Assembly: GCA_028292045.1 (NCBI GenBank)
Contig: JAQGMZ010000181.1
Span: forward strand, 1-34,052
Reading direction: 5' to 3'
DNA length: 34,052 nucleotides
From: Polaromonas sp.
GTDB taxonomy: Bacteria; Pseudomonadota; Gammaproteobacteria; Burkholderiales; Burkholderiaceae_C
A program made the position numbers and the translations under genes. Shown here in pieces: positions 23,323 through 33,353 of this stretch (position 1 is the stretch's first letter; each line of letters opens with the position of its first letter). Under the pieces are notes generated by a model that did no database searches, was not told where the DNA came from, and saw only the letters and a program-made list of their open reading frames with translations.

Positions 23323-24552
23323 TTAAAAAAGAATACGGCTGCGAATGGTGCCCTGAACCATTGACAGTTTGGCAAGCACCGTTTCGGAATGCGCCGCATC
23401 AATGTCAATCACCACGTAACCGACGGACTCGCTGGTTTGCAGATACTGCGAAGCGATGTTGATGTGGTTGTCCGAAAACACCCGGTTGATCTCCGACAGC
23501 ACGCCCGGCACATTGCGGTGTATGTGCAGCACACGATGCTTGCCCGGGTGGGCGGGCAAGGCCACTTCCGGAAAATTGACAGATGAGGTCGAAGTGCCGT
23601 TGTCGCTGTACTTGACCAGCTTTTCCGCAACCTCGATGCCAATATTGGCCTGCGCCTCCATCGTCGATCCGCCCACGTGCGGCGTCAGGATTACATTGTC
23701 CAGGCCGCGCAAGGGCGACTCAAAGCTGTCCTTGTTGCTCCGCGGCTCGACTGGAAACACATCGATGGCCGCGCCCAGCAATCTTTTAGCCCGCAACGCC
23801 TGAGCCAGCGGCTCGATCTCGACCACCGTGCCGCGTGAAGCATTGATGAGCACGCTTCCAGGCTTCATGGCCGCAATCTGATCGGCTCCCATCATCCATT
23901 GGGTGGACTGGGTTTCCGGCACATGCAGGGTCACCACATCAGCTTGCCCCAGCAATGCAGCCAGGCTGCCAACCTGCTGCGCGTTGCCTAAAGGCAGTTT
24001 GGTGACCACGTCAAAAAAGATGACGCGCATTCCAAGGCCTTCAGCCAGCACTGACAACTGGGTGCCTATGGAGCCATAACCCACGATGCCCAGTGTCTTG
24101 CCCCGTATTTCGTAAGCGTTTTCAGCCGATTTCATCCAGCCACCCCGGTGGGCTGCGGCACTTTTTTCAGGAACGCCACGGAGCAGCAAAATTGCTTCAG
24201 CCAATACCAGCTCGGCAACTGAGCGGGTATTGGAAAACGGCGCATTGAACACGGCGATCCCACGCTCACGCGCAGCAACCAGGTCCACCTGATTGGTGCC
24301 GATGCAGAAGCAGCCGACTGCAACCAGCCTGGAGGCGTGGGCCAGTACGTCCGCAGTCAGTTGCGTCCGGGAACGGATGCCCAGAAAGTGAACATCCGCA
24401 ATCTTGCGTTTGAGCTCATCGTCCGGCAATGCGCCCGCCAGGCTTTCAATGTGCATGTAGCCGGCTGCCTCCAGCACGTTTTTGGCAGAAGCGTCAATTC
24501 CTTCCAAAAGCAAAAATTTGATTTTGTTTTTATCAGTCGAAGTTTTGAGCAT
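23323..24552 (-). CDS. serA: D-3-phosphoglycerate dehydrogenase
   Basis: First enzyme of serine biosynthesis, oxidising 3-phosphoglycerate with NAD. The 409 residues match the Escherichia coli-type SerA in length and layout: NAD loop GIVGYGSIGTQ (about 155-165), catalytic Arg240 (NASRGTVVE), Glu269 (DVFPVEP) and His292 (LTPHVGGST), numbered as in the E. coli enzyme. A C-terminal ACT domain (about 335-409; HRVLHIHRNVPGVLSEIN) usually gives serine feedback inhibition. It is convergent with the lipoprotein gene and separated from it by 96 bases without a clear terminator. Confidence 0.96.
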   Translation of the reverse strand: MLKTSTDKNKIKFLLLEGIDASAKNVLEAAGYMHIESLAGALPDDELKRKIADVHFLGIRSRTQLTADVLAHASRLVAVGCFCIGTNQVDLVAARERGIAVFNAPFSNTRSVAELVLAEAILLLRGVPEKSAAAHRGGWMKSAENAYEIRGKTLGIVGYGSIGTQLSVLAEGLGMRVIFFDVVTKLPLGNAQQVGSLAALLGQADVVTLHVPETQSTQWMMGADQIAAMKPGSVLINASRGTVVEIEPLAQALRAKRLLGAAIDVFPVEPRSNKDSFESPLRGLDNVILTPHVGGSTMEAQANIGIEVAEKLVKYSDNGTSTSSVNFPEVALPAHPGKHRVLHIHRNVPGVLSEINRVFSDNHINIASQYLQTSESVGYVVIDIDAAHSETVLAKLSMVQGTIRSRILF

Positions 24553-24813: not shown

Positions 24814-24889
24814 TCCTCAATAGCTCAGTTGGTAGAGCGCCGGACTGTTAATCCGTAGGTCCCTGGTTCGAGCCCAGGTTGAGGAGCCA
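24814..24889 (+). tRNA. tRNA-Asn (anticodon GTT)
   Basis: A 76-base cloverleaf including an encoded CCA. The acceptor arms TCCTCAA and TTGAGGA pair perfectly, with G as discriminator; the D arm is GCTC/GAGC, the anticodon loop CTGTTAA (anticodon at 24847-24849) and the T arm CCTGG-TTCGAGC-CCAGG. The top pair of the anticodon stem (positions 27-43) is a C-T mismatch; the other four pairs hold. It is a single tRNA followed by its own terminator. Confidence 0.97.
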
Positions 24890-24944: not shown

Positions 24945-25166
24945 CTTGCCTGTGCAATTGAAGGGTAGTTCGTCAGGCAATTTCGGTAGCCGTTCTGATC
25001 GGTGATGCAGCCAGCAACAGCACTAAAATAGCATGCATGAAAAGCTGTGAAAAGGCAGCAGCATGCCGATCGACCACTGCATCAACGCAACAGCAATCTC
25101 ATGAACAATTGCGAATGTCAGCGCCAATGCTGCTGATAGCCAAAGCGCAATTACAGGTTGGCCGCG

Positions 25167-26360
25167 GTGGTTGACTCGCGTCAGCTCTGCGGCGATGGGT
25201 TGGCCGATGCCCTGCGCGATTCCCGCAGGCGAACCATTTCACTGATCAGCGACCTGTCTGCTGCGCAGTGGAGGCCGGCGCAACAGACAGGCATCAACCC
25301 GATTGCCTGGGAACTTGCCCATCTCGCCTGGTTTGCGGAGTTCTGGATTTTGCGCGGCCCGCATCACCGCGACCTCGACGGACTTGCGCATGCACGACAG
25401 CAGCCCCGTTTTGCCGGACCTGACGCGCTGTTTGACTCGGCTCGACTGGCGCATGCACAACGCTGGGATGAAGCCATGCCCGCCCGCGCTGAGCTGGGCG
25501 CCATGCTGTCCGGTCAGCTGGATGCCTGCATCGAGGCGCTGCCGCCTGCAGGCCTCCATCCAGAGTCAGCGAGAGAGCAGTTTTACTTTCACCGCCTGGC
25601 GCTTTTTCATGAAGATATGCACGGCGAAGCCTTTTGCTGGTTGCGCGCAGCGCTGGGCTATCCGGCTCCCCCGGGCATGACCATGCCCCTGGTTGGCCGC
25701 AGCGCAGCCTTGACTGTGAAGGGCGCAAGCGTCTGGACGGGCTACAGCCATGCTTTTCCGGGATTTACGTTTGACAACGAATACCCTGGCCGATCCGGTT
25801 GGCTGCATGACTTTGAAATCGACAGCGCACCTGTATCGGCAGGCGCTTTTTTGCGTTTTGTGGAAGCGGGCGGCTATGAAGTGCCTGCTTACTGGCCGCT
25901 GGACGCTGGTGCCTGGCGGGCTGAGTCTGGCGACCCCCATCCCCGGCGCTGGCGGCGCACGGGCGCATCAGAATGGGAAATGCGCTGGTTTGATCAATGG
26001 GTGCCTCTTGAGCTTGCGGCGCCGGTCATGCATCTGAACGCCTTTGAAGCACAAGCCTATTGCCTGTGGGCCAACCGGCGCCTGCCGACGGCCAGTGAAT
26101 GGGAGCACTCGGCGCTAACCCAGCCAGCATTTGAATGGGGCTACGGTGTATGGGAATGGATGTCGGATCCGTTCGAACCTTACCCCGGGTTCACGCCAGG
26201 GCCTTACCGTGAATACTCGCAGCCCTGGTTTGGCAATCACCGTGAATTGCGCGGCGGTGCATTTGCAACCCATGCTCGCATGCACAACCCGCGTTATCGC
26301 AATTTTTTCCAGCCGCATCGCAACGATATATTTTCAGGCTTTCGGACGGCAGCGCTGTAA
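25167..26360 (+). CDS. senA: Selenoneine synthase SenA (EgtB-like nonheme iron enzyme)
   Basis: Predicted iron- and oxygen-dependent enzyme that joins a selenosugar to hercynine, the C-Se bond-forming step of selenoneine synthesis. About 397 residues: an N-terminal DinB-like domain (about 15-160) with the EgtB iron motif HEDMHGE (H-x3-H-x-E) and an earlier ELAHLAWFAEFWI helix, then a formylglycine-generating-enzyme-like domain (about 185-397) with LPTASEWEHSAL, GYGVWEWMSDPFEPY, ELRGGAFATHARM and a final FSGFRTAAL. EgtB would be the alternative, but no egtA, egtC or egtD is nearby, while senB- and senC-like genes are. The frame is open to a TTG at 25158; the GTG at 25167 is preferred because ACAGG lies 9 bases before it. 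It is convergent with the importer operon. Confidence 0.85.
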   Translation: MVDSRQLCGDGLADALRDSRRRTISLISDLSAAQWRPAQQTGINPIAWELAHLAWFAEFWILRGPHHRDLDGLAHARQQPRFAGPDALFDSARLAHAQRWDEAMPARAELGAMLSGQLDACIEALPPAGLHPESAREQFYFHRLALFHEDMHGEAFCWLRAALGYPAPPGMTMPLVGRSAALTVKGASVWTGYSHAFPGFTFDNEYPGRSGWLHDFEIDSAPVSAGAFLRFVEAGGYEVPAYWPLDAGAWRAESGDPHPRRWRRTGASEWEMRWFDQWVPLELAAPVMHLNAFEAQAYCLWANRRLPTASEWEHSALTQPAFEWGYGVWEWMSDPFEPYPGFTPGPYREYSQPWFGNHRELRGGAFATHARMHNPRYRNFFQPHRNDIFSGFRTAAL

Positions 26361-26429
26361 GACCATTGCCGGGTGCACCGATGCGCAGTGGTTGCATGGC
26401 CATAAAAGCGGCGAATCTTGAAACAACAT

Positions 26430-27254
26430 TCAACGCGACAAGGCGCTGCGAACCAGGTAGCTCAGCGCGTCCACCAGGGCGACGAGCACCAGCATGGCCA
26501 ACAAGACGGTACTGGTCTCGCCCATCTGGAACAGGCCCATGTGAAACGCGAGCATCTGCCCCAGGCCACCGGCGCCCACCACGCCCAATATGGCGGCGGC
26601 GCGAATATTGTTTTCCCACCGGTACAGCGAATAGCTCATCAGCTGCGGCAAGATTTGCGGCAGCGTGGCGTAAAGGAAAATCCGGCTTTCGCTCACACCG
26701 CGCACCCGCAGAGCAAAGGCGGGCGATGCCCCGGCGTTTTCAATGGACTCGGCAAACAAGCGCCCCAGAACACCCGATGTGTGCAGCCCCAGGGCCAGGG
26801 TGCCTGCAAAAGGACCCAGGCCAACCGCAATCAACAGCAGTGCCGCCCATACCAGTTCGGGCGTGCTGCGCAGTGTATTGAGGAGAAGGCGGGTCAGCAT
26901 GCGCCAGCGTGCCGGGTCTTGCGCATGGGCTTTGCTGGCGGGCAGGGCCAGGGCCAGTCCGAGCAGCACAGCCAGAAGGGTCCCCATGGCCGACATGGCC
27001 AGCGTCTCCAGTGAGGCAATCAACACCTTGCCGATGAAGGCGCTGCTGGTTTGCGGGTGCAAAAGCTCCCTCACAAAACGCCCCATCCTGCCGGCTGCGT
27101 CCCATGACCAGAAGCGTGCCCACTGCAAATCCAGGCTGGCAAAGCTGGCGGCGACCAGCAGCGCAATGCCCAGTACCAGCCAGCACGCCATGCAGCGTGC
27201 ATTGAACAGCCGGGGCGGCAATTTATAGGTGTCGTTGGCGGCGCCGGGTTTCAT
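26430..27254 (-). CDS. PhnE-type ABC transporter permease (second permease)
   Basis: Inner-membrane permease of a phosphonate-type importer, 274 residues with about six membrane segments. The family blocks LLLNTLRSTPELVWAALLLI and SLYRWENNIRAAAILGVVGA (the coupling-helix region with the ...GAGGLGQML continuation) are clear. The frame is open to an ATG at 27311 that would overlap the previous gene by 49 bases; the ATG at 27254, 8 bases after that gene's stop, is more likely. It is the last gene of a phnD-C-E-E operon. Here the importer is flanked by selenium genes and no C-P lyase gene is near, so the cargo is probably not a phosphonate. Confidence 0.88.
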   Translation of the reverse strand: MKPGAANDTYKLPPRLFNARCMACWLVLGIALLVAASFASLDLQWARFWSWDAAGRMGRFVRELLHPQTSSAFIGKVLIASLETLAMSAMGTLLAVLLGLALALPASKAHAQDPARWRMLTRLLLNTLRSTPELVWAALLLIAVGLGPFAGTLALGLHTSGVLGRLFAESIENAGASPAFALRVRGVSESRIFLYATLPQILPQLMSYSLYRWENNIRAAAILGVVGAGGLGQMLAFHMGLFQMGETSTVLLAMLVLVALVDALSYLVRSALSR

Positions 27255-27262
27255 GGCGGATT

Positions 27263-28117
27263 TCAGGCCAGGCCCTTGCGCAGTGCGGCGCTCATGCAGT
27301 CCGCCAGCCACACCAGCGCCATGAACACCAGCAAGATGCTGGCAACCTCAGCGCCATTGAACATTTTCATGGAAGCGTCCATCAACTGCCCCAGACCGCC
27401 GGCGCCGACAAAACCCAACACGGCGCTGGAACGAATGGCGCACTCCCAGCGGTACACGGTGTAGCTGGTCAACTCGCCCGCATTCTGGGGAAGCAGGCCG
27501 TAGAAAAAAGCCTGCAGGCGGCCTGAGCCATTGCGCATCAGGCTGGACGTGGCATGGTCGTCGCCGCTCTCCAGAATGTCGGCATACACCTTACCCAGCA
27601 TGCCGCCGTAAGTCAGCGCTATGGCCAGCACGCCAGAGGTAGGCCCCAGGCCCACCACCCTCACAAACACCAGCGCCCACACAAGTTCCGGCACGCTGCG
27701 CAACAGCGTCAGCAGCCAGCGGACCAGTTGGCGCATCACGCCGGGCAAGAAAGCCATGCGGCCCGTGAGCGCCGACAGGGACAGAGCCCTCACCGACAAG
27801 AGCGACAGCGGAATTGCCAGCAGCAGTGCCAGGGTCAGGCCTGCCGTGGCCATGGCCACGGTGCGCCAGACTTCCCGCAGCAGCAGGATCAAGAAATCAG
27901 CGTCAGTGCGGGGCGGGAAAAAATCTCCCACGAAATTGAGCGCGGGCTTCAAGGCGCCCGGTTCCATCAGCAGCCAGGGTTTGAACTCGGTCAGCACCAG
28001 CGTAGGCCAGAGCAGGGCCAGCCCTGCCAGGAGCCAGAAAATCCGGCCGGACCAAGCCGGGTCGCGCAAGGCCGGTGCGCGCGGGGGCAGGGCTTGAACA
28101 GGCACTGAAAACTTCAT
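27263..28117 (-). CDS. PhnE-type ABC transporter permease (first permease)
   Basis: Permease of 284 residues, related to the next one. Membrane segments begin at about residue 25 (IFWLLAGLALLWPTLVL); LLTLLRSVPELVWALVFVRV and TVYRWECAIRSSAVLGFVGA are the PhnE blocks. Two different PhnE subunits imply a heterodimeric channel, an arrangement known in some phosphonate and phosphite importers. It lies 13 bases after the ATPase gene and 8 bases before its partner, so the three are one transcript. Confidence 0.88.
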   Translation of the reverse strand: MKFSVPVQALPPRAPALRDPAWSGRIFWLLAGLALLWPTLVLTEFKPWLLMEPGALKPALNFVGDFFPPRTDADFLILLLREVWRTVAMATAGLTLALLLAIPLSLLSVRALSLSALTGRMAFLPGVMRQLVRWLLTLLRSVPELVWALVFVRVVGLGPTSGVLAIALTYGGMLGKVYADILESGDDHATSSLMRNGSGRLQAFFYGLLPQNAGELTSYTVYRWECAIRSSAVLGFVGAGGLGQLMDASMKMFNGAEVASILLVFMALVWLADCMSAALRKGLA

Positions 28118-28130
28118 GGCGCGCTGCAGG

Positions 28131-28964
28131 TCAACGGCAGTGCATCACGACGGGCGTCGAGGCGGCAGGGTGAAACCCATCGTCGGCATGCGCAGGCCCC
28201 GTCAATTCATGCAGGTGCTGGGCGTACAGTGCCTGCAGATGCGCCTGGGTGACTGCGGCAGCGGGCAGGTCAAAGGCCAATGCGCCTGCCCGCATGCCCA
28301 CGATGCGCGGAAAATGGGTTAACGCCATTTCGACATGATGCAGCGTGGTCACCAGCGTGGCACCGCGTTCACGGGCGGCCTGGGTCAGGGTCTGAATGGC
28401 GAGTTCGGAGCGGGTCGGGTCCAGCGCTGACAAGGGCTCGTCGACCAGCAGCAGCGCAGCCTCGGACACCAGCACCCGGGCCAGCCCCACACGCTGGCGT
28501 TCGCCGCCCGAAAGGCGGTCCACCCGGTCAAACAGTTTGTCGCTCACATCGAACCCGGCCAGTGCACGTTCAGCCCTGGGGATGTCTACCGGGTAAAACA
28601 GGCTTCTCAGGCTGGACCAAAGGCTTTCATGCGCAAGCCGCCCGGCCAGCACCGTGGTGACCACGCGCTGGCGGGGCGGCAGCGGCGGCACCTGGGGGGC
28701 GAGGAACAACGCCCCACGCAACTCCCGCAAGGCGCCGCGCGGCAACTGCCACGGGTTCTGACCATTGATCAGCACCGAGCCAGCCGAAGGCTTGAGCGCG
28801 CAGGCCATCAAGTGCAGCAACGTGGTTTTGCCGGCGCCCGATGGCCCGATGATGGCTAGCTGCTCACCAGCACGCACGCTCAGGCTCAAGGCGCTCACGG
28901 CGGGCTGTGCCCCCGGCCTTGCCGCCGGGTGACTTCCCGTGGCACTGCGCACATCAATTTTCAT
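28131..28964 (-). CDS. PhnC-type ABC transporter ATP-binding protein
   Basis: ATPase of the importer, 277 residues. Walker A GPSGAGKTT is at 40-48, the signature LSGGERQRVGLARVL at 151-165, Walker B LLLVDEPLSALDP at 171-183 and the H-loop LVTTLHHVEMAL after it; all are canonical, so the single ATPase would serve both sites as a homodimer. Compared with usual PhnC proteins it has about 25 extra, low-complexity residues at the C-terminus (ELTGPAHADDGFHPAAST onward) that include several His. It starts 73 bases after the binding-protein gene. Confidence 0.9.
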   Translation of the reverse strand: MKIDVRSATGSHPAARPGAQPAVSALSLSVRAGEQLAIIGPSGAGKTTLLHLMACALKPSAGSVLINGQNPWQLPRGALRELRGALFLAPQVPPLPPRQRVVTTVLAGRLAHESLWSSLRSLFYPVDIPRAERALAGFDVSDKLFDRVDRLSGGERQRVGLARVLVSEAALLLVDEPLSALDPTRSELAIQTLTQAARERGATLVTTLHHVEMALTHFPRIVGMRAGALAFDLPAAAVTQAHLQALYAQHLHELTGPAHADDGFHPAASTPVVMHCR

Positions 28965-29037
28965 GACAAAAAAGGCATGCTGCTGTTAGTGGGTAGTCAT
29001 TGATCGATATCGGGGCAGCAGCGCATTGTTGGAGCGG

Positions 29038-29904
29038 CTATTTCAAAAGGCCTGCACTGCGCGCCGCTTGCTCAATGCCTTTGTAGTTGCTGGCCTGGGT
29101 GGGAATGAAGCGCGTGGCGCGTTGCAGATCCAGAATTTCCTTGCCTTCCGCGGTAGATTTGTCCAGGCTCAAAAAAGCCTTAGTCAGCTTTTCACGCTGC
29201 GCTGGGGGCATGTCGGCATGCACCGTCCAGTTGTAGTCAAAAAAACCCGGGGTGGTGAAAAATACCTTGACCTTGGCGGTGTCCACCTTGCCATCGGCCA
29301 CAAACTTTTCCCAAACCGAGATGTTCAGGGCGCCTGCATCAACCTTGCCTGCCGCCACTGCTGCAATGGTCGCATCGTGCGCTCCCGAATAGGCCACCCG
29401 CTTGAAGTCCTTGTCCGGGTCGATATTGGCCTGGAGTAAAAAGCTGCGCGGCATCAAATGCCCGGAGGTGCTGGATTGCGAACCAAAGCTCACGCTTTTG
29501 TTTTTCAGATCAGCCAGGGTTTTGATGGCGGGGTCGCTGGTGATGAAAACCGATCGAAACTTTTCGTCCTCTTCCCGTTGAACCAGGGGAACGGCCTTGC
29601 CGCCCGAGCGCACATTGGCCTGCACAAAAGTAAAGCCGCCATACCAGGCCAGGTCGACCTGCTTGTTGGCCAGTGCTTCCACCGAGGCGGCATAGTCGCT
29701 GACCGGCGTGAATTCGACTTTCATGCCCAGGGTTTTTTCCAGGTACTTCATCAGCGGCGCTGCCTTGCGCGACAACTCGGTGGGTGATTCGTCAGGAATC
29801 GCGGTGACCCTGAACACCGTTTGGGCATGTGAAAAAGCGCCAAAGGCAAACAACGCCAGAGCAGTGATTCCGCGAAAGGGACGAGAACTGAAAATACCAA
29901 CCAT
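29038..29904 (-). CDS. PhnD-type periplasmic binding protein, putative selenium oxyanion receptor
   Basis: Substrate-binding protein of 288 residues. Signal peptide: SRPFRGITALALFAFGAFSH with cleavage after SHA (residue 27). The mature part has the PhnD-like opening TAIPDESPTELSRKAAPLM, the pocket segment VDLAWYGGFTFVQA, the anion loop FGSQSSTSGHLMPRSFLLQ and AYSGAHDATIAAVAAGKVDA. From memory, NCBI recognises a PhnD subfamily named putative selenate ABC transporter substrate-binding protein, which co-occurs with the SelD fusion found here; that match was not tested. It heads the importer operon and is divergent from senB, sharing a 151-base promoter region. Phosphate-, phosphite- or phosphonate-binding remains the alternative. 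Confidence 0.85.
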   Translation of the reverse strand: MVGIFSSRPFRGITALALFAFGAFSHAQTVFRVTAIPDESPTELSRKAAPLMKYLEKTLGMKVEFTPVSDYAASVEALANKQVDLAWYGGFTFVQANVRSGGKAVPLVQREEDEKFRSVFITSDPAIKTLADLKNKSVSFGSQSSTSGHLMPRSFLLQANIDPDKDFKRVAYSGAHDATIAAVAAGKVDAGALNISVWEKFVADGKVDTAKVKVFFTTPGFFDYNWTVHADMPPAQREKLTKAFLSLDKSTAEGKEILDLQRATRFIPTQASNYKGIEQAARSAGLLK

Positions 29905-30055
29905 GAAGACCTCAACCGGAAAGAAAAGAGTTGTCGATTAGACTTGATATTTGGCGCTCATGCAGCCAGCGCCGCTTGGCAAAACTCATGTAATTTCTGC
30001 AGGTGTGGACGGCCTGGATGCATTTTTCGTCAAAGATCCACTTCTCAAATGCCGT
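29905..30055. promoter_or_regulatory. Divergent promoter region, importer operon / senBC
   Basis: The only room for promoters of both the phnD-like operon and senBC. It holds an inverted repeat GGCGCT-N9-AGCGCC (29953-29973) near its middle and is more AT-rich toward phnD. No unambiguous -35/-10 pairs could be assigned. Joint control of import and utilisation from this spacer is an inference from the gene layout. Confidence 0.4.
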
Positions 30056-31078
30056 ATGAAACGTTCTCGCCTGCTCATTATTGTCCCCGCAACGGCCGCT
30101 GCCAACAACGGTAACTGGCAAACCGCCCAGCGTTGGTCACGCATGCTGCGGCCGACATTTCAGGTCACCCTGGCGCAGGGCTGGAATGGCGAGCCTTTCG
30201 ATGTGATGCTGGCGCTGCATGCCCGGCGTTCAGCCGAATCCATTGCCCGGTGGCCGCGCACGCAAGGTGCAGACGCTGTCGCCCCGGGTCTGGGCGTGGT
30301 GCTGACCGGCACCGACCTGTACCGGGACATTCAGAGCGATGCATCGGCGCAGGCATCCCTGGCTTATGCGCAGCAACTGGTCGTTTTGCAGGAATGCGCG
30401 CCTGATGCCTTGCCGGTGGCGGTGCGGCCCAAAGCCAGGGTGATTTTTCAATCCGTGGGCCTCCGGCAAACCGCGGTGAAGCCAGGGCAGCTTTTGCGCG
30501 CCGTGATGGTCGGTCACCTGCGTGAAGAAAAGTCGCCGCAAACCCTTTTCAACGCAGCCCGACGGCTCAAGCAGCATCCCGACATCCACATCGACCACAT
30601 CGGGGATGCGCTGGACGCTGAACTCGGCAGGCAAGCCCAGGCCTGTGCTGCCGAATGCCCGCGCTACCGGTGGCTGGGCGGACTGGCGCATGACGTCGCG
30701 CGCCGGCGCATACAGCGCGCGCACGTGCTGGTGCATGCCAGCCGCATGGAAGGAGGCGCCCATGTGGTGATGGAGGCCATCTGCAGCGGAACACCGGTGT
30801 TGGCCTCCAGGATTCCGGGCAATGTCGGCATGCTGGGCGCCGGCTACGCGGGCTATTTCGAACACGGCAATGCGCAGGAACTCGCGGATTTGCTCTTACG
30901 GCTGCGGGCTGAACAAAAAACTGCCGACGGCTTGTATCGTTTGCTGCAAGCCCAATGCGCCCAGCGCGCGCCGCTGTTTGCACCTGCCGCTGAAAAAGCA
31001 GCGCTGACGGCGTTGATGCGCGATCTGCTGCAATACAAAACCAACCCGGAAACTGCACTGCCCCATGCTTGCGCCTGA
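30056..31078 (+). CDS. senB: Selenosugar synthase SenB (TIGR04348-type glycosyltransferase)
   Basis: Predicted to transfer the selenium of selenophosphate to a UDP-sugar, giving the selenosugar used by SenA. About 340 residues with a GT-B, GT4-like layout. The N-terminus RLLIIVPATAAANNGNWQTA resembles the TIGR04348 opening (PAPxxxxxGN), and GVVLTGTDLYRDI and RAVMVGHLREEKSP follow. The donor-site motif E-x7-E lies in SRMEGGAHVVMEAICSGTPV. The frame is open 35 codons further upstream, but homology starts at the ATG at 30056. No good ribosome site is seen there. Its last 14 bases overlap the start of senC, so the two are translationally coupled. Confidence 0.85.
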   Translation: MKRSRLLIIVPATAAANNGNWQTAQRWSRMLRPTFQVTLAQGWNGEPFDVMLALHARRSAESIARWPRTQGADAVAPGLGVVLTGTDLYRDIQSDASAQASLAYAQQLVVLQECAPDALPVAVRPKARVIFQSVGLRQTAVKPGQLLRAVMVGHLREEKSPQTLFNAARRLKQHPDIHIDHIGDALDAELGRQAQACAAECPRYRWLGGLAHDVARRRIQRAHVLVHASRMEGGAHVVMEAICSGTPVLASRIPGNVGMLGAGYAGYFEHGNAQELADLLLRLRAEQKTADGLYRLLQAQCAQRAPLFAPAAEKAALTALMRDLLQYKTNPETALPHACA

Positions 31079-33353
31079 ACAACCTATCTTGAGAGACATC
31101 GTGCTGGTCGGCGGGGGCCACAGCCATGTCGGCGTTCTCAAGAGCTTTGGCATGCGGCCGGTTGCCGGTGTGCGGCTCACCTTGATTTGCACCGACACGC
31201 ACACCCCGTATTCAGGCATGCTGCCCGGCTATGTGGCAGGCCACTACGACTATGACGCGGTGCATATCGACCTGAGCCGCCTGGCGGTTTTTGCCGGGGC
31301 ACGGCTGTACCGCGACGAAGTAGTAGGCCTGGACCGGGTCAACCACAAAGTGCTTTGCCGCAACCGGCCGCCGGTGCCTTTTGATGTGTTGTCCATCAAC
31401 ATCGGCTCCACCCCCCGGCTGCAAGGCGTGCCGGGCGCTGCGATGCATGTGGTGGCGGTCAAGCCGATTGCCCGCTTCAATGAGCGTTGGCTGGCGCTGC
31501 TGGAACGTGTGCAGCGCCACCCCGGATGCACGACCGTGGCCGTGGTGGGCGCAGGGGCGGGCGGCGTGGAACTGCTTCTGGCCATGCAGTTTCGCCTGCG
31601 CAATGCTTTGGCCGCACTGGGCCGCAACCCGGATGAAATTGCTTTTCACCTGTTCACCGACAGTGCCTGCATCTTGCCGACGCACAACCCGGGTGTGCGG
31701 CGCCGGTTTGAAGCCGTGTTGGCTGACCGCCAGGTGGTGGTGCACCGCAATGCGGCTGTCGTCGAGGTCATGCGCGGACGTCTGCAAACCGCATCGGGCG
31801 AGGTGCTTGATGCCGATGAGATCGTCTGGGTGACGCGCGCCGGCGGAGCCGACTGGTTGAAATCCACCGGCCTGGCGCTGGATCCGGAAGGGTTTATCCA
31901 GGTCGCGGACACCTTGCAGAGCGTGACGGACCCGGCTATTTTTGCCGCCGGCGACATCGCCAGCATGGTGAACCATCCATTGGAAAAAGCCGGTGTGTTT
32001 GCCGTGCGCCAGGGGCCGCCCCTGACCGACAACCTTCGCCGCACCGTGCAGGGCGCATTGCTGAAGCCCTACCGCCCCCAACGCAGCTGGCTGGCCCTGA
32101 TCAGCACCGGCGACCAGTACGCCGTGGGATCGCGCGGCTGGCTCGGTTTTGCCGGCGCATGGGTATGGCGCTGGAAAGACCGGATTGACCGGCGTTTCAT
32201 GCGCAACTACCAGGAACTGGCGCCCATGGACACGCGGGCAGCGGCAACAGCGGCAAACCCGACCGGCACGGTGCAGCTCACTTCAGAGGAGTCGTTGCAG
32301 GCTATCTCGGCCATTGCCATGCGCTGCGGCGGCTGCGGCGCCAAGGTGGGCGCCACCGTGCTGTCGCGCGCATTGAGCCAGTTGCACCCGGTGCAGCGCG
32401 ACGACGTGCTGGTGGGCCTGAAAGACCCGGACGATGCCGCCGTGGTTCGGGTGCCCCCCGGCAAAGCCATGGTGCATTCAGTGGACTTTTTCCGATCCTT
32501 CATTGACGACCCCTATCTGTTCGGCAAGGTTGCCGCCAACCATGCGCTGGGCGACATTTGGGCCATGGGCGCGCAGGCGCAGTCAGCCACTGCGATTGCC
32601 ACCGTGCCCTCGGGGCTGGAGAGCAAGGTCGAAGATGTGCTGTTCCAGATGATGACCGGCGCACTGGAGGTATTGAACGCGGCCAACTGCGCGCTGGTGG
32701 GCGGCCACACGGGGGAGGGCAGGGAACTGGCGCTGGGCTTTGCCATCAACGGCCTGATCGACGACGATCCGTCGCAGATCCTGAGAAAAAACGGCATGCG
32801 CCCGGGCGATGTGCTGATTTTGACCAAGCCGATGGGTACCGGCACCCTGTTTGCCGCGCACGCCCGCCTCGCCGCCAAGGGCCGGTGGATAGACGCCGCA
32901 ATGCAGTCCATGGTGGTGTCCAACCGGCTGGGCGCGCAATGCCTGCGCGAATTCGGCGCCACTGCCTGCACTGACCTCACCGGCTTCGGGCTGCTGGGCC
33001 ATCTGGTGGAAATGACCCGGCCTTCAGGGGTGGATGCAGAAATCGATCTGGGCGCCTTGCCCCTGCTGGAGGGCGCGCAGGAATGCGTGAACGCCGGGAT
33101 TGTGAGCTCCCTGCAAAGCGCCAACGTGCGGTTGCGCCGCGCCTTGCGCAACCAGGAAGCGATGCGCAGTCATCCGCGCTATCCGCTGATCTTTGACCCG
33201 CAAACGGCAGGCGGCCTGCTGGCCAGCGTTCCGGCCGACCGGGCTGAGGCGTGCATGGCAGCGTTGCGTAAATTGGGGTATTGCCACACTGCAGCGATCG
33301 GCCGAATTTTGGTGCAGGGTGATGCGTTGGAGCCGATTACGCTTTGTGCTTGA
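31065..33353 (+). CDS. senC: SenC: FAD/NAD oxidoreductase fused to selenophosphate synthetase (SelD)
   Basis: A 762-residue fusion. Residues about 9-385 are a pyridine nucleotide-disulfide oxidoreductase of the NDH-2-like type: FAD loop DIVLVGGGHSHVGVL, NAD loop VAVVGAGAGGVELLLAMQ (about 158-175) and DPAIFAAGDIASM (about 289-301). Residues about 415-762 are SelD, making selenophosphate from selenide and ATP: RCGGCGAKVGATVL with Cys424 and Lys427 at the positions of E. coli SelD Cys17 and Lys20 (the second Cys, Cys19, is Ala426), then VHSVDFFRSFIDDPYLFGKV, NHALGDIWAMGAQAQSA and VGGHTGEGRELALGF. The oxidoreductase half may reduce an oxidised selenium species for the SelD half; this is inferred. 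No selA, selB or selC is in the window. Confidence 0.92.
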   Translation: MLAPEQPILRDIVLVGGGHSHVGVLKSFGMRPVAGVRLTLICTDTHTPYSGMLPGYVAGHYDYDAVHIDLSRLAVFAGARLYRDEVVGLDRVNHKVLCRNRPPVPFDVLSINIGSTPRLQGVPGAAMHVVAVKPIARFNERWLALLERVQRHPGCTTVAVVGAGAGGVELLLAMQFRLRNALAALGRNPDEIAFHLFTDSACILPTHNPGVRRRFEAVLADRQVVVHRNAAVVEVMRGRLQTASGEVLDADEIVWVTRAGGADWLKSTGLALDPEGFIQVADTLQSVTDPAIFAAGDIASMVNHPLEKAGVFAVRQGPPLTDNLRRTVQGALLKPYRPQRSWLALISTGDQYAVGSRGWLGFAGAWVWRWKDRIDRRFMRNYQELAPMDTRAAATAANPTGTVQLTSEESLQAISAIAMRCGGCGAKVGATVLSRALSQLHPVQRDDVLVGLKDPDDAAVVRVPPGKAMVHSVDFFRSFIDDPYLFGKVAANHALGDIWAMGAQAQSATAIATVPSGLESKVEDVLFQMMTGALEVLNAANCALVGGHTGEGRELALGFAINGLIDDDPSQILRKNGMRPGDVLILTKPMGTGTLFAAHARLAAKGRWIDAAMQSMVVSNRLGAQCLREFGATACTDLTGFGLLGHLVEMTRPSGVDAEIDLGALPLLEGAQECVNAGIVSSLQSANVRLRRALRNQEAMRSHPRYPLIFDPQTAGGLLASVPADRAEACMAALRKLGYCHTAAIGRILVQGDALEPITLCA

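Follow-up and report, generated by a model that had tools for sequence, protein, structure and literature searches.

The stretch analysed here, called the window, comprises 34,052 nucleotides of contig JAQGMZ010000181.1 in the Polaromonas sp. assembly GCA_028292045.1. At positions 25158-33353 it carries a selenoneine (sen) locus in which a putative selenium importer lies among the biosynthetic genes: senA on the plus strand, then two permease genes, an ATPase gene and a receptor gene on the minus strand, then senB and a fused senC, again on the plus strand. An earlier reading of the letters alone (the sequence-only reading) had described SenA, SenB and a fused oxidoreductase-SelD protein (SenC) flanking an opposite-strand PhnDCE-type importer. 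NCBIfam scores and coordinates confirmed this arrangement and bore out the positions of all seven genes, with two corrections of start codons. The features are as follows.

25158..26360, plus strand: senA, selenoneine synthase, divergent subtype; start TTG 25158 or GTG 25167; NF041186 450.5 bits (cut-off 420)
26430..27311, minus strand: PhnE-type permease 2; TIGR01097 251.4 bits (cut-off 216.7, passed)
27263..28117, minus strand: PhnE-type permease 1; TIGR01097 200.7 bits (below 216.7); Pfam BPD_transp_1
28131..28964, minus strand: PhnC-like ATPase; Pfam ABC_tran; TIGR02315 181.8 bits (below 266.1)
29038..29904, minus strand: periplasmic oxyanion receptor, putative selenium (selenite) binding protein; TIGR04553 417.8 bits (cut-off 250)
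29905..30055: divergent gap of 151 bp between the receptor and senB starts
30056..31078, plus strand: senB, selenosugar synthase; reading frame open from TTG 29951; TIGR04348 432.1 bits (cut-off 300)
31065..33353, plus strand: senC fusion of a pyridine-nucleotide oxidoreductase and a selenophosphate synthetase; TIGR03169 503.9 bits (cut-off 310); TIGR00476 SelD 298.2 bits (cut-off 125)

SenB most likely starts at ATG 30056 rather than at TTG 29951, judged by where the structure alignment begins, and since the receptor's ATG lies at 29904, this start gives the divergent gap its 151 bp. For the second permease, ATG 27254 is the probable start, not GTG 27311. The reading frames of senB and senC share 14 bp. 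SenA, SenB and a SelD-type SenC are all present together at the locus, with all their curated cut-offs passed; SenA matched the PDB SenA 8ryz with an E value of 5.7e-82, and SenB the PDB SenB 8k5u with 3.3e-112. The oxidoreductase half of SenC is the part that matched TIGR03169 (Nterm_to_SelD), and SenC scored 436.3 bits, below the cut-off of 700, on TIGR04369, the NCBIfam model for oxidoreductase/SelD fusions judged not to be SelD. The locus is real and conserved, and its enzymes are ordinary. As in the sen cluster of Variovorax paradoxus, the SenA, SenB and SenC families are all represented; unlike that cluster, the window has an importer between senA and senBC, a SenC fused to an oxidoreductase, and a SenA of a divergent subtype with 34-45% identity to full-length SenAs found beside senB elsewhere. 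A commentary on the founding sen paper (PMC9814287) names no importer.

The receptor is a full-length match to TIGR04553, scoring well above the cut-off. This NCBIfam family is named 'putative selenate ABC transporter' (ATP-binding cassette; model kind hypoth_equivalog). The selenium label is not new: it predates this analysis, and we found no experimental proof behind TIGR04553. On TIGR03431, the model for PhnD linked to carbon-phosphorus (C-P) lyase, the receptor reached 168.6 bits, below the cut-off of 261.1. The best fold match of its structure model (mean predicted local distance difference test score 89.0) was the PhnD1 of Synechococcus (E 1.6e-33, 42% identity), and the nearest solved folds were the PhnD1 structures 7s6g, 5lq8 and 5lq5.

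To describe the pocket we used eleven positions of Prochlorococcus PhnD1 that belong to the ligand site or the cap, drawn from the available text of PMC5700983, with 64 and 130 added in this analysis. Residue comparison demonstrated that all eleven positions, which form a three-oxygen STS-H site and a tyrosine cap, are identical in the window receptor. Across the window and 49 relatives, ten of the eleven were invariant and N194 was kept in 49 of the 50 proteins. C-P lyase-linked PhnD proteins have the fold in common with the window receptor and differ in the cap: the cap tyrosine and its partner were lost in all eight such relatives compared. Selenite is trigonal and selenate tetrahedral; since a PhnD1-like pocket fits a trigonal anion, the shape of selenite, the sequence favours selenite over selenate. 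PhnD1 itself is inferred, in the text available from PMC10284923, to need at least three oxygens in a trigonal arrangement, and its affinity for phosphite is given there as at least ten times that for phosphate.

The family name says selenate and the pocket argues for selenite. We consider it quite unlikely that the importer carries selenate rather than selenite, although the NCBIfam name does say so, and although ArrX, a more distant receptor of the same fold, has been solved with tetrahedral arsenate and sulfate. Selenate is tetrahedral, whereas the pocket is that of a receptor described as having three sites for oxygens, with the fourth side covered by a tyrosine cap, and PhnD1 is reported to bind phosphate far more weakly than phosphite.

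Examination of gene neighborhoods indicated that the importer travels with selenium genes rather than with C-P lyase or phosphite genes. Among the named loci, which are the best 80 of 241 receptor relatives chosen by likeness to the window protein, SenB was present in 53, and SenB, SelD/SenC or SelU lay within the stretch examined in 60; where at least 9.5 kb was available on both sides, SenB was found in 31 of 44. The common order is senC-senB-senA-egtD-importer. Because egtD adjoins the receptor in 37 of the 80 loci and senA lies upstream of it in 36, the importer usually sits at the cluster edge. All 34 EgtD candidates, taken from gaps by their sequence motifs, matched the EgtD model (E <= 1e-40). 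SenC was fused in 18 of the 80 loci and an unfused SelD-type protein in 34. The sequence-only reading had the importer splitting the sen locus, which is true at the window, but this is a local layout: the window's position of senA, beyond the second permease, recurs in three of the 80 loci (L022, L023 and L028). In nine of the 80, SenB faces the receptor at a distance of up to 400 bp, which is also the window's arrangement.

A head-to-head arrangement of receptor and selD also occurs in four of the 80 named loci, and other sets add single examples. On a plasmid of Sphaerotilus sulfidivorans (L184, 6430-11880), selU, an ATPase gene, a double-length permease gene, a receptor gene and selD follow one another on one strand. 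The receptor there is 51% identical to that of the window, and the run is, on its predicted gene content, a compact unit for selenium uptake and tRNA modification. In two Hydrogenophaga loci (L066 and L075), the receptor gene has no matching permease or ATPase genes adjoining it, unlike nearly all other loci.

Co-occurrence was counted in 300 genomes of the window's order, its own genome included, with tests that treat genomes as independent and ignore kinship. In this order sample the receptor scored above the cut-off in 65 genomes, and SenB was present in 89. SenB occurred in 36 of the 65 receptor genomes versus 53 of the 235 others (odds ratio 4.3, p 1e-6), SelA in 33 versus 51 (odds ratio 3.7, p 9e-6), and SelD in 61 versus 157 (p 3e-6). 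Receptor and SenB lay within 10 kb of each other in ten of the 36 genomes with both (window included). PhnJ was not associated with the receptor in the same sample (10/65 versus 23/235, p 0.26); among the ten genomes with receptor and PhnJ, one had both on a single contig, 515 kb apart, and in none did the receptor lie near C-P lyase. The sequence-only reading was right that the importer has no C-P lyase genes next to it, and a search of the assembly to which the window belongs (81% complete) gave no PhnJ match. On the TIGR03431 score and the PhnJ tests, a phosphonate importer was set aside.

A wider sample of 150 genomes from the phylum contained 14 with the receptor, three of which had already been met, leaving 11 new flanks. 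In two genomes of another order (L173 and L174), SenB and a fused SenC adjoin a receptor 34-35% identical to that of the window, and a score of 370.4 bits confirmed the SenB of L173. In L182, from the phylum sample, selD and selU occur, head to head with the receptor. Ten neighbor genes from genomes in which SenB is missing or unlinked proved unrelated; a multicopper oxidase, CcmI, a diguanylate cyclase and a protein similar to CheX/CheC were among them.

Relatives scoring below the TIGR04553 cut-off keep different company. Among the 85 matches listed for such receptors, 18 of the 79 places tested lay within 8 kb of PhnJ, and selenium genes appeared in none of 15 loci with such receptors in the stretches examined, eight of which were shorter than 5 kb. 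PtxB phosphite receptors share the fold and the STS-H motif with the window receptor; the PtxB of P. stutzeri differs from the window pocket at positions 11, 90, 176 and 205, and PtxB-related loci adjoin PtxD. The sequence-only reading had asked whether close homologues are found for the most part next to C-P lyase or phosphite genes; run on these genomes, the comparison found that they do not.

These results point to an ATP-driven importer, encoded by the four minus-strand genes, whose substrate would be a small oxyanion of selenium (selenite in all likelihood) and which would supply SelD-type enzymes; we put the probability of this at roughly two in three. The receptor would grip SeO3(2-)/HSeO3(-) by its three oxygens in the STS-H cluster while the tyrosine cap closes the fourth side, as the identity with the PhnD1 pocket suggests. 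Judging by their families, the PhnE-type permeases and the ATPase would then move the anion inward. Thiols of the cell, perhaps aided by the oxidoreductase half of the fusion, would reduce selenite to selenide; the SelD half would make selenophosphate, SenB a selenosugar, and SenA would join selenium to hercynine. The chemistry of the SelD, SenB and SenA families in selenoneine synthesis is known (PMC9814287).

Several observations weigh against this proposal. Because the pocket equals that of the phosphite-binding PhnD1, sequence alone cannot tell selenite from phosphite. Selenite has a lone pair where phosphite has its P-H, so that contact with the cap is impossible for it. Part of the phosphite fit is just this P-H contact with the cap tyrosine, according to the available text of PMC5700983, which gives the dissociation constants (Kd) of Prochlorococcus PhnD as 0.051 uM (51 nM) for phosphite and 182 uM for phosphate. 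Those of two Synechococcus PhnD1 proteins for phosphite are 1.7 and 2.8 uM (PMC10284923), and selenite is absent from the main texts of both papers. The genomic evidence also has gaps. SenB lies on another contig than the receptor in 26 of the 36 genomes with both, four of the 65 receptor genomes have no SelD match, and two of the 16 SenB-lacking genomes with flanks examined show selD or selU nearby. Three of the 11 phylum-level flanks carry selenium genes, and eight show none. Twenty of the 80 named loci are without SenB, SelD/SenC or SelU in the stretch examined; nine of these have about 10 kb of flank on both sides, and four of the 20 carry egtD. Kinship is left out of the co-occurrence counts, and the named loci were picked for likeness to the window protein.

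It is conceivable, though in our judgement rather unlikely, that phosphite (or phosphate) is the receptor's ligand in the cell, and that the sen neighborhood has another reason or was inherited by chance. Besides the shared pocket, a receptor on a Burkholderia plasmid, 41% identical to that of the window, adjoins a phosphite dehydrogenase and keeps ten of the eleven pocket residues; however, it scores 221 bits, below the TIGR04553 cut-off. PtxD-like genes of at least 45% identity (47-100%, the 100% one being the query itself) were present in six of 186 loci, many of them short; all six receptors fell below the cut-off, and the next best PtxD match was 31%. The order sample gave no link between receptor and PhnJ, and the linkage to SenB, SelD and SelU recurs across families and in another order. 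No phosphite dehydrogenase was found beside the receptor in the window. The best match to PtxD there (28%), the gene at 23323-24552, was rejected as a phosphite dehydrogenase, being a phosphoglycerate dehydrogenase (667.5 bits, cut-off 404).

Some receptors above the cut-off nonetheless differ in the pocket. The weakest of the order sample (L132, genome G190) scored 282 bits, just above the cut-off, has five of the eleven positions changed and comes from a genome with no SelD match; it probably has another ligand. Three positions are changed in each of L134 (G063) and L183 (G432), and one in each of L173 and L174. With such variants above it, the TIGR04553 cut-off may admit receptors for other ligands.

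Uptake of organic selenium, such as a selenosugar, or recovery of selenoneine would also suit an importer that sits among selenoneine genes, and an ergothioneine ABC transporter is described from gut bacteria in the available text of PMC10903977. We regard this as very improbable: the residues match those of a pocket that is small and closed, and the family also adjoins selD and selU where there are no sen genes.

The proposed selenite importer would, moreover, not be reserved for selenoneine, as had been suggested from the embedded position of its genes. Of the 65 receptor genomes, 29 lack SenB (16 of these 29 have SelA), and in the four named loci mentioned above the receptor faces selD. A selenoneine-only importer was rejected on the first of these counts, which argues that the importer serves selenium use generally, with the sen cluster as one customer. 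It is a strong candidate, on its genomic associations, for a dedicated selenium importer serving several selenium pathways.

The window's own genome is consistent with more than one use. In its assembly the fused SenC is the only SelD match, and there is one SelU; SelA was not found, in an assembly that is 81% complete. As the only SelD found, the fusion would draw on the same selenium supply for SelU and tRNA selenouridine, and a single source of selenophosphate, fed by the importer, would serve selenoneine and tRNA selenouridine alike. Hercynine would come from the EgtD encoded on another contig (C266). The assembly holds three proteins of SenA/EgtB type: the window SenA, a copy on contig C17 (L144 7859-11588; SenA 447.6 bits, above the cut-off) and an EgtB on contig C146 (549.8 bits, cut-off 360). 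In a tree, the window SenA fell in the SenA half, apart from EgtB (100/100), on a branch of its own with Rhodoferax copies from the same place (100/98); the C17 copy fell among SenAs that adjoin senB, without firm support. In the vicinity of this copy are genes for an ABC ATPase and for a tungstate receptor of TupA type (217 bits, below the cut-off of 400). Elsewhere in the window, a YdiU/SelO family protein is encoded at 1000-2493 on the minus strand (593 bits, cut-off 431), and a tRNA-Asn (GTT) gene lies at 24814-24889 on the plus strand, upstream of senA.

The importer had also been credited with a promoter region shared with senBC. The divergent gap is there, but the shared promoter was not borne out: one promoter-like site was found, versus 1.8 in shuffled sequences. 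A promoter-like core (TCAAGTCTAATCGA / GTCTAATCGA) at 29934-29947 on the minus strand is conserved in close relatives, where GTCTAATCGA lies mostly 20-40 bp 5' of the receptor start; from its letters it looks like a -10 box or an operator. With up to two mismatches the core occurred in 27 of 114 upstream stretches, compared to 3-14 in ten shuffled sets, and with up to one mismatch in nine stretches, all from the window and its close relatives L021-L032 (L021 is from Polaromonas glacialis). An operator common to the importer and the sen genes was set aside, what was found being a promoter-like core 5' of some receptors. A second k-mer from the upstream comparison, GTAGTACTAC, came to nothing.

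In the literature searched we did not meet the link between the sen genes and the importer; the founding sen paper lay outside that search, and the link may be known to specialists. In the text available from each, reviews of 2022 and 2026 state that a specific transporter with high affinity for selenium has yet to be identified, and a 2024 mutant study says the same of a dedicated one. A 'selenate ABC transporter' does appear in a genome analysis, which, in the portion available, infers the role from the label. Entries of a similar kind are a 'phosphonate/selenate' binding protein in a table of the Pseudomonas putida exoproteome and, in an E. coli table, the sulfate/thiosulfate importer given as the selenite/selenate carrier.

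The PhnD1 and PhnDCE of marine picocyanobacteria have been studied, in the papers as available, as a phosphorus receptor and transporter. The crystallised PhnD1 proteins 5LQ5 and 7S6G scored 302.4 and 338.3 bits on TIGR04553; since PhnD1 passes that cut-off, the orphan PhnDCE transporter may import selenium too. In a tree, PhnD1 branches with L173-L176 and L183 (98/77, a joint support under the starred level, with long branches), and two receptors of this branch, L173 and L174, are those that adjoin SenB and a fused SenC. A 2005 survey (PMC1273633) describes, in its available text, SelU in cyanobacteria and, for Prochlorococcus and Synechococcus, a SelD homolog whose N-terminal extension is 320 residues long and NADH-dehydrogenase-like. 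According to the available text of PMC10284923, two Synechococcus strains cannot grow on phosphite as sole phosphorus source, and the assumed phosphorus role of PhnDCE is called paradoxical. A selenite role of PhnDCE in picocyanobacteria would fit. We were unable to detect any relative of the window receptor or of Synechococcus PhnD1 in the viral contigs scanned with both.

We can postulate, tentatively and as a possibility short of an expectation, that TIGR04553 is the missing dedicated bacterial importer of selenite, the orphan PhnDCE of Prochlorococcus and marine Synechococcus included, and that phosphite binding is a by-product of similar shape. The question of how trace selenium enters bacteria is open, and this locus and its relatives make it testable, with a defined receptor, a ligand predicted for it and organisms in culture. 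If it is true that the family includes the picocyanobacterial PhnDCE, a transporter whose phosphorus role has been paradoxical would be explained.

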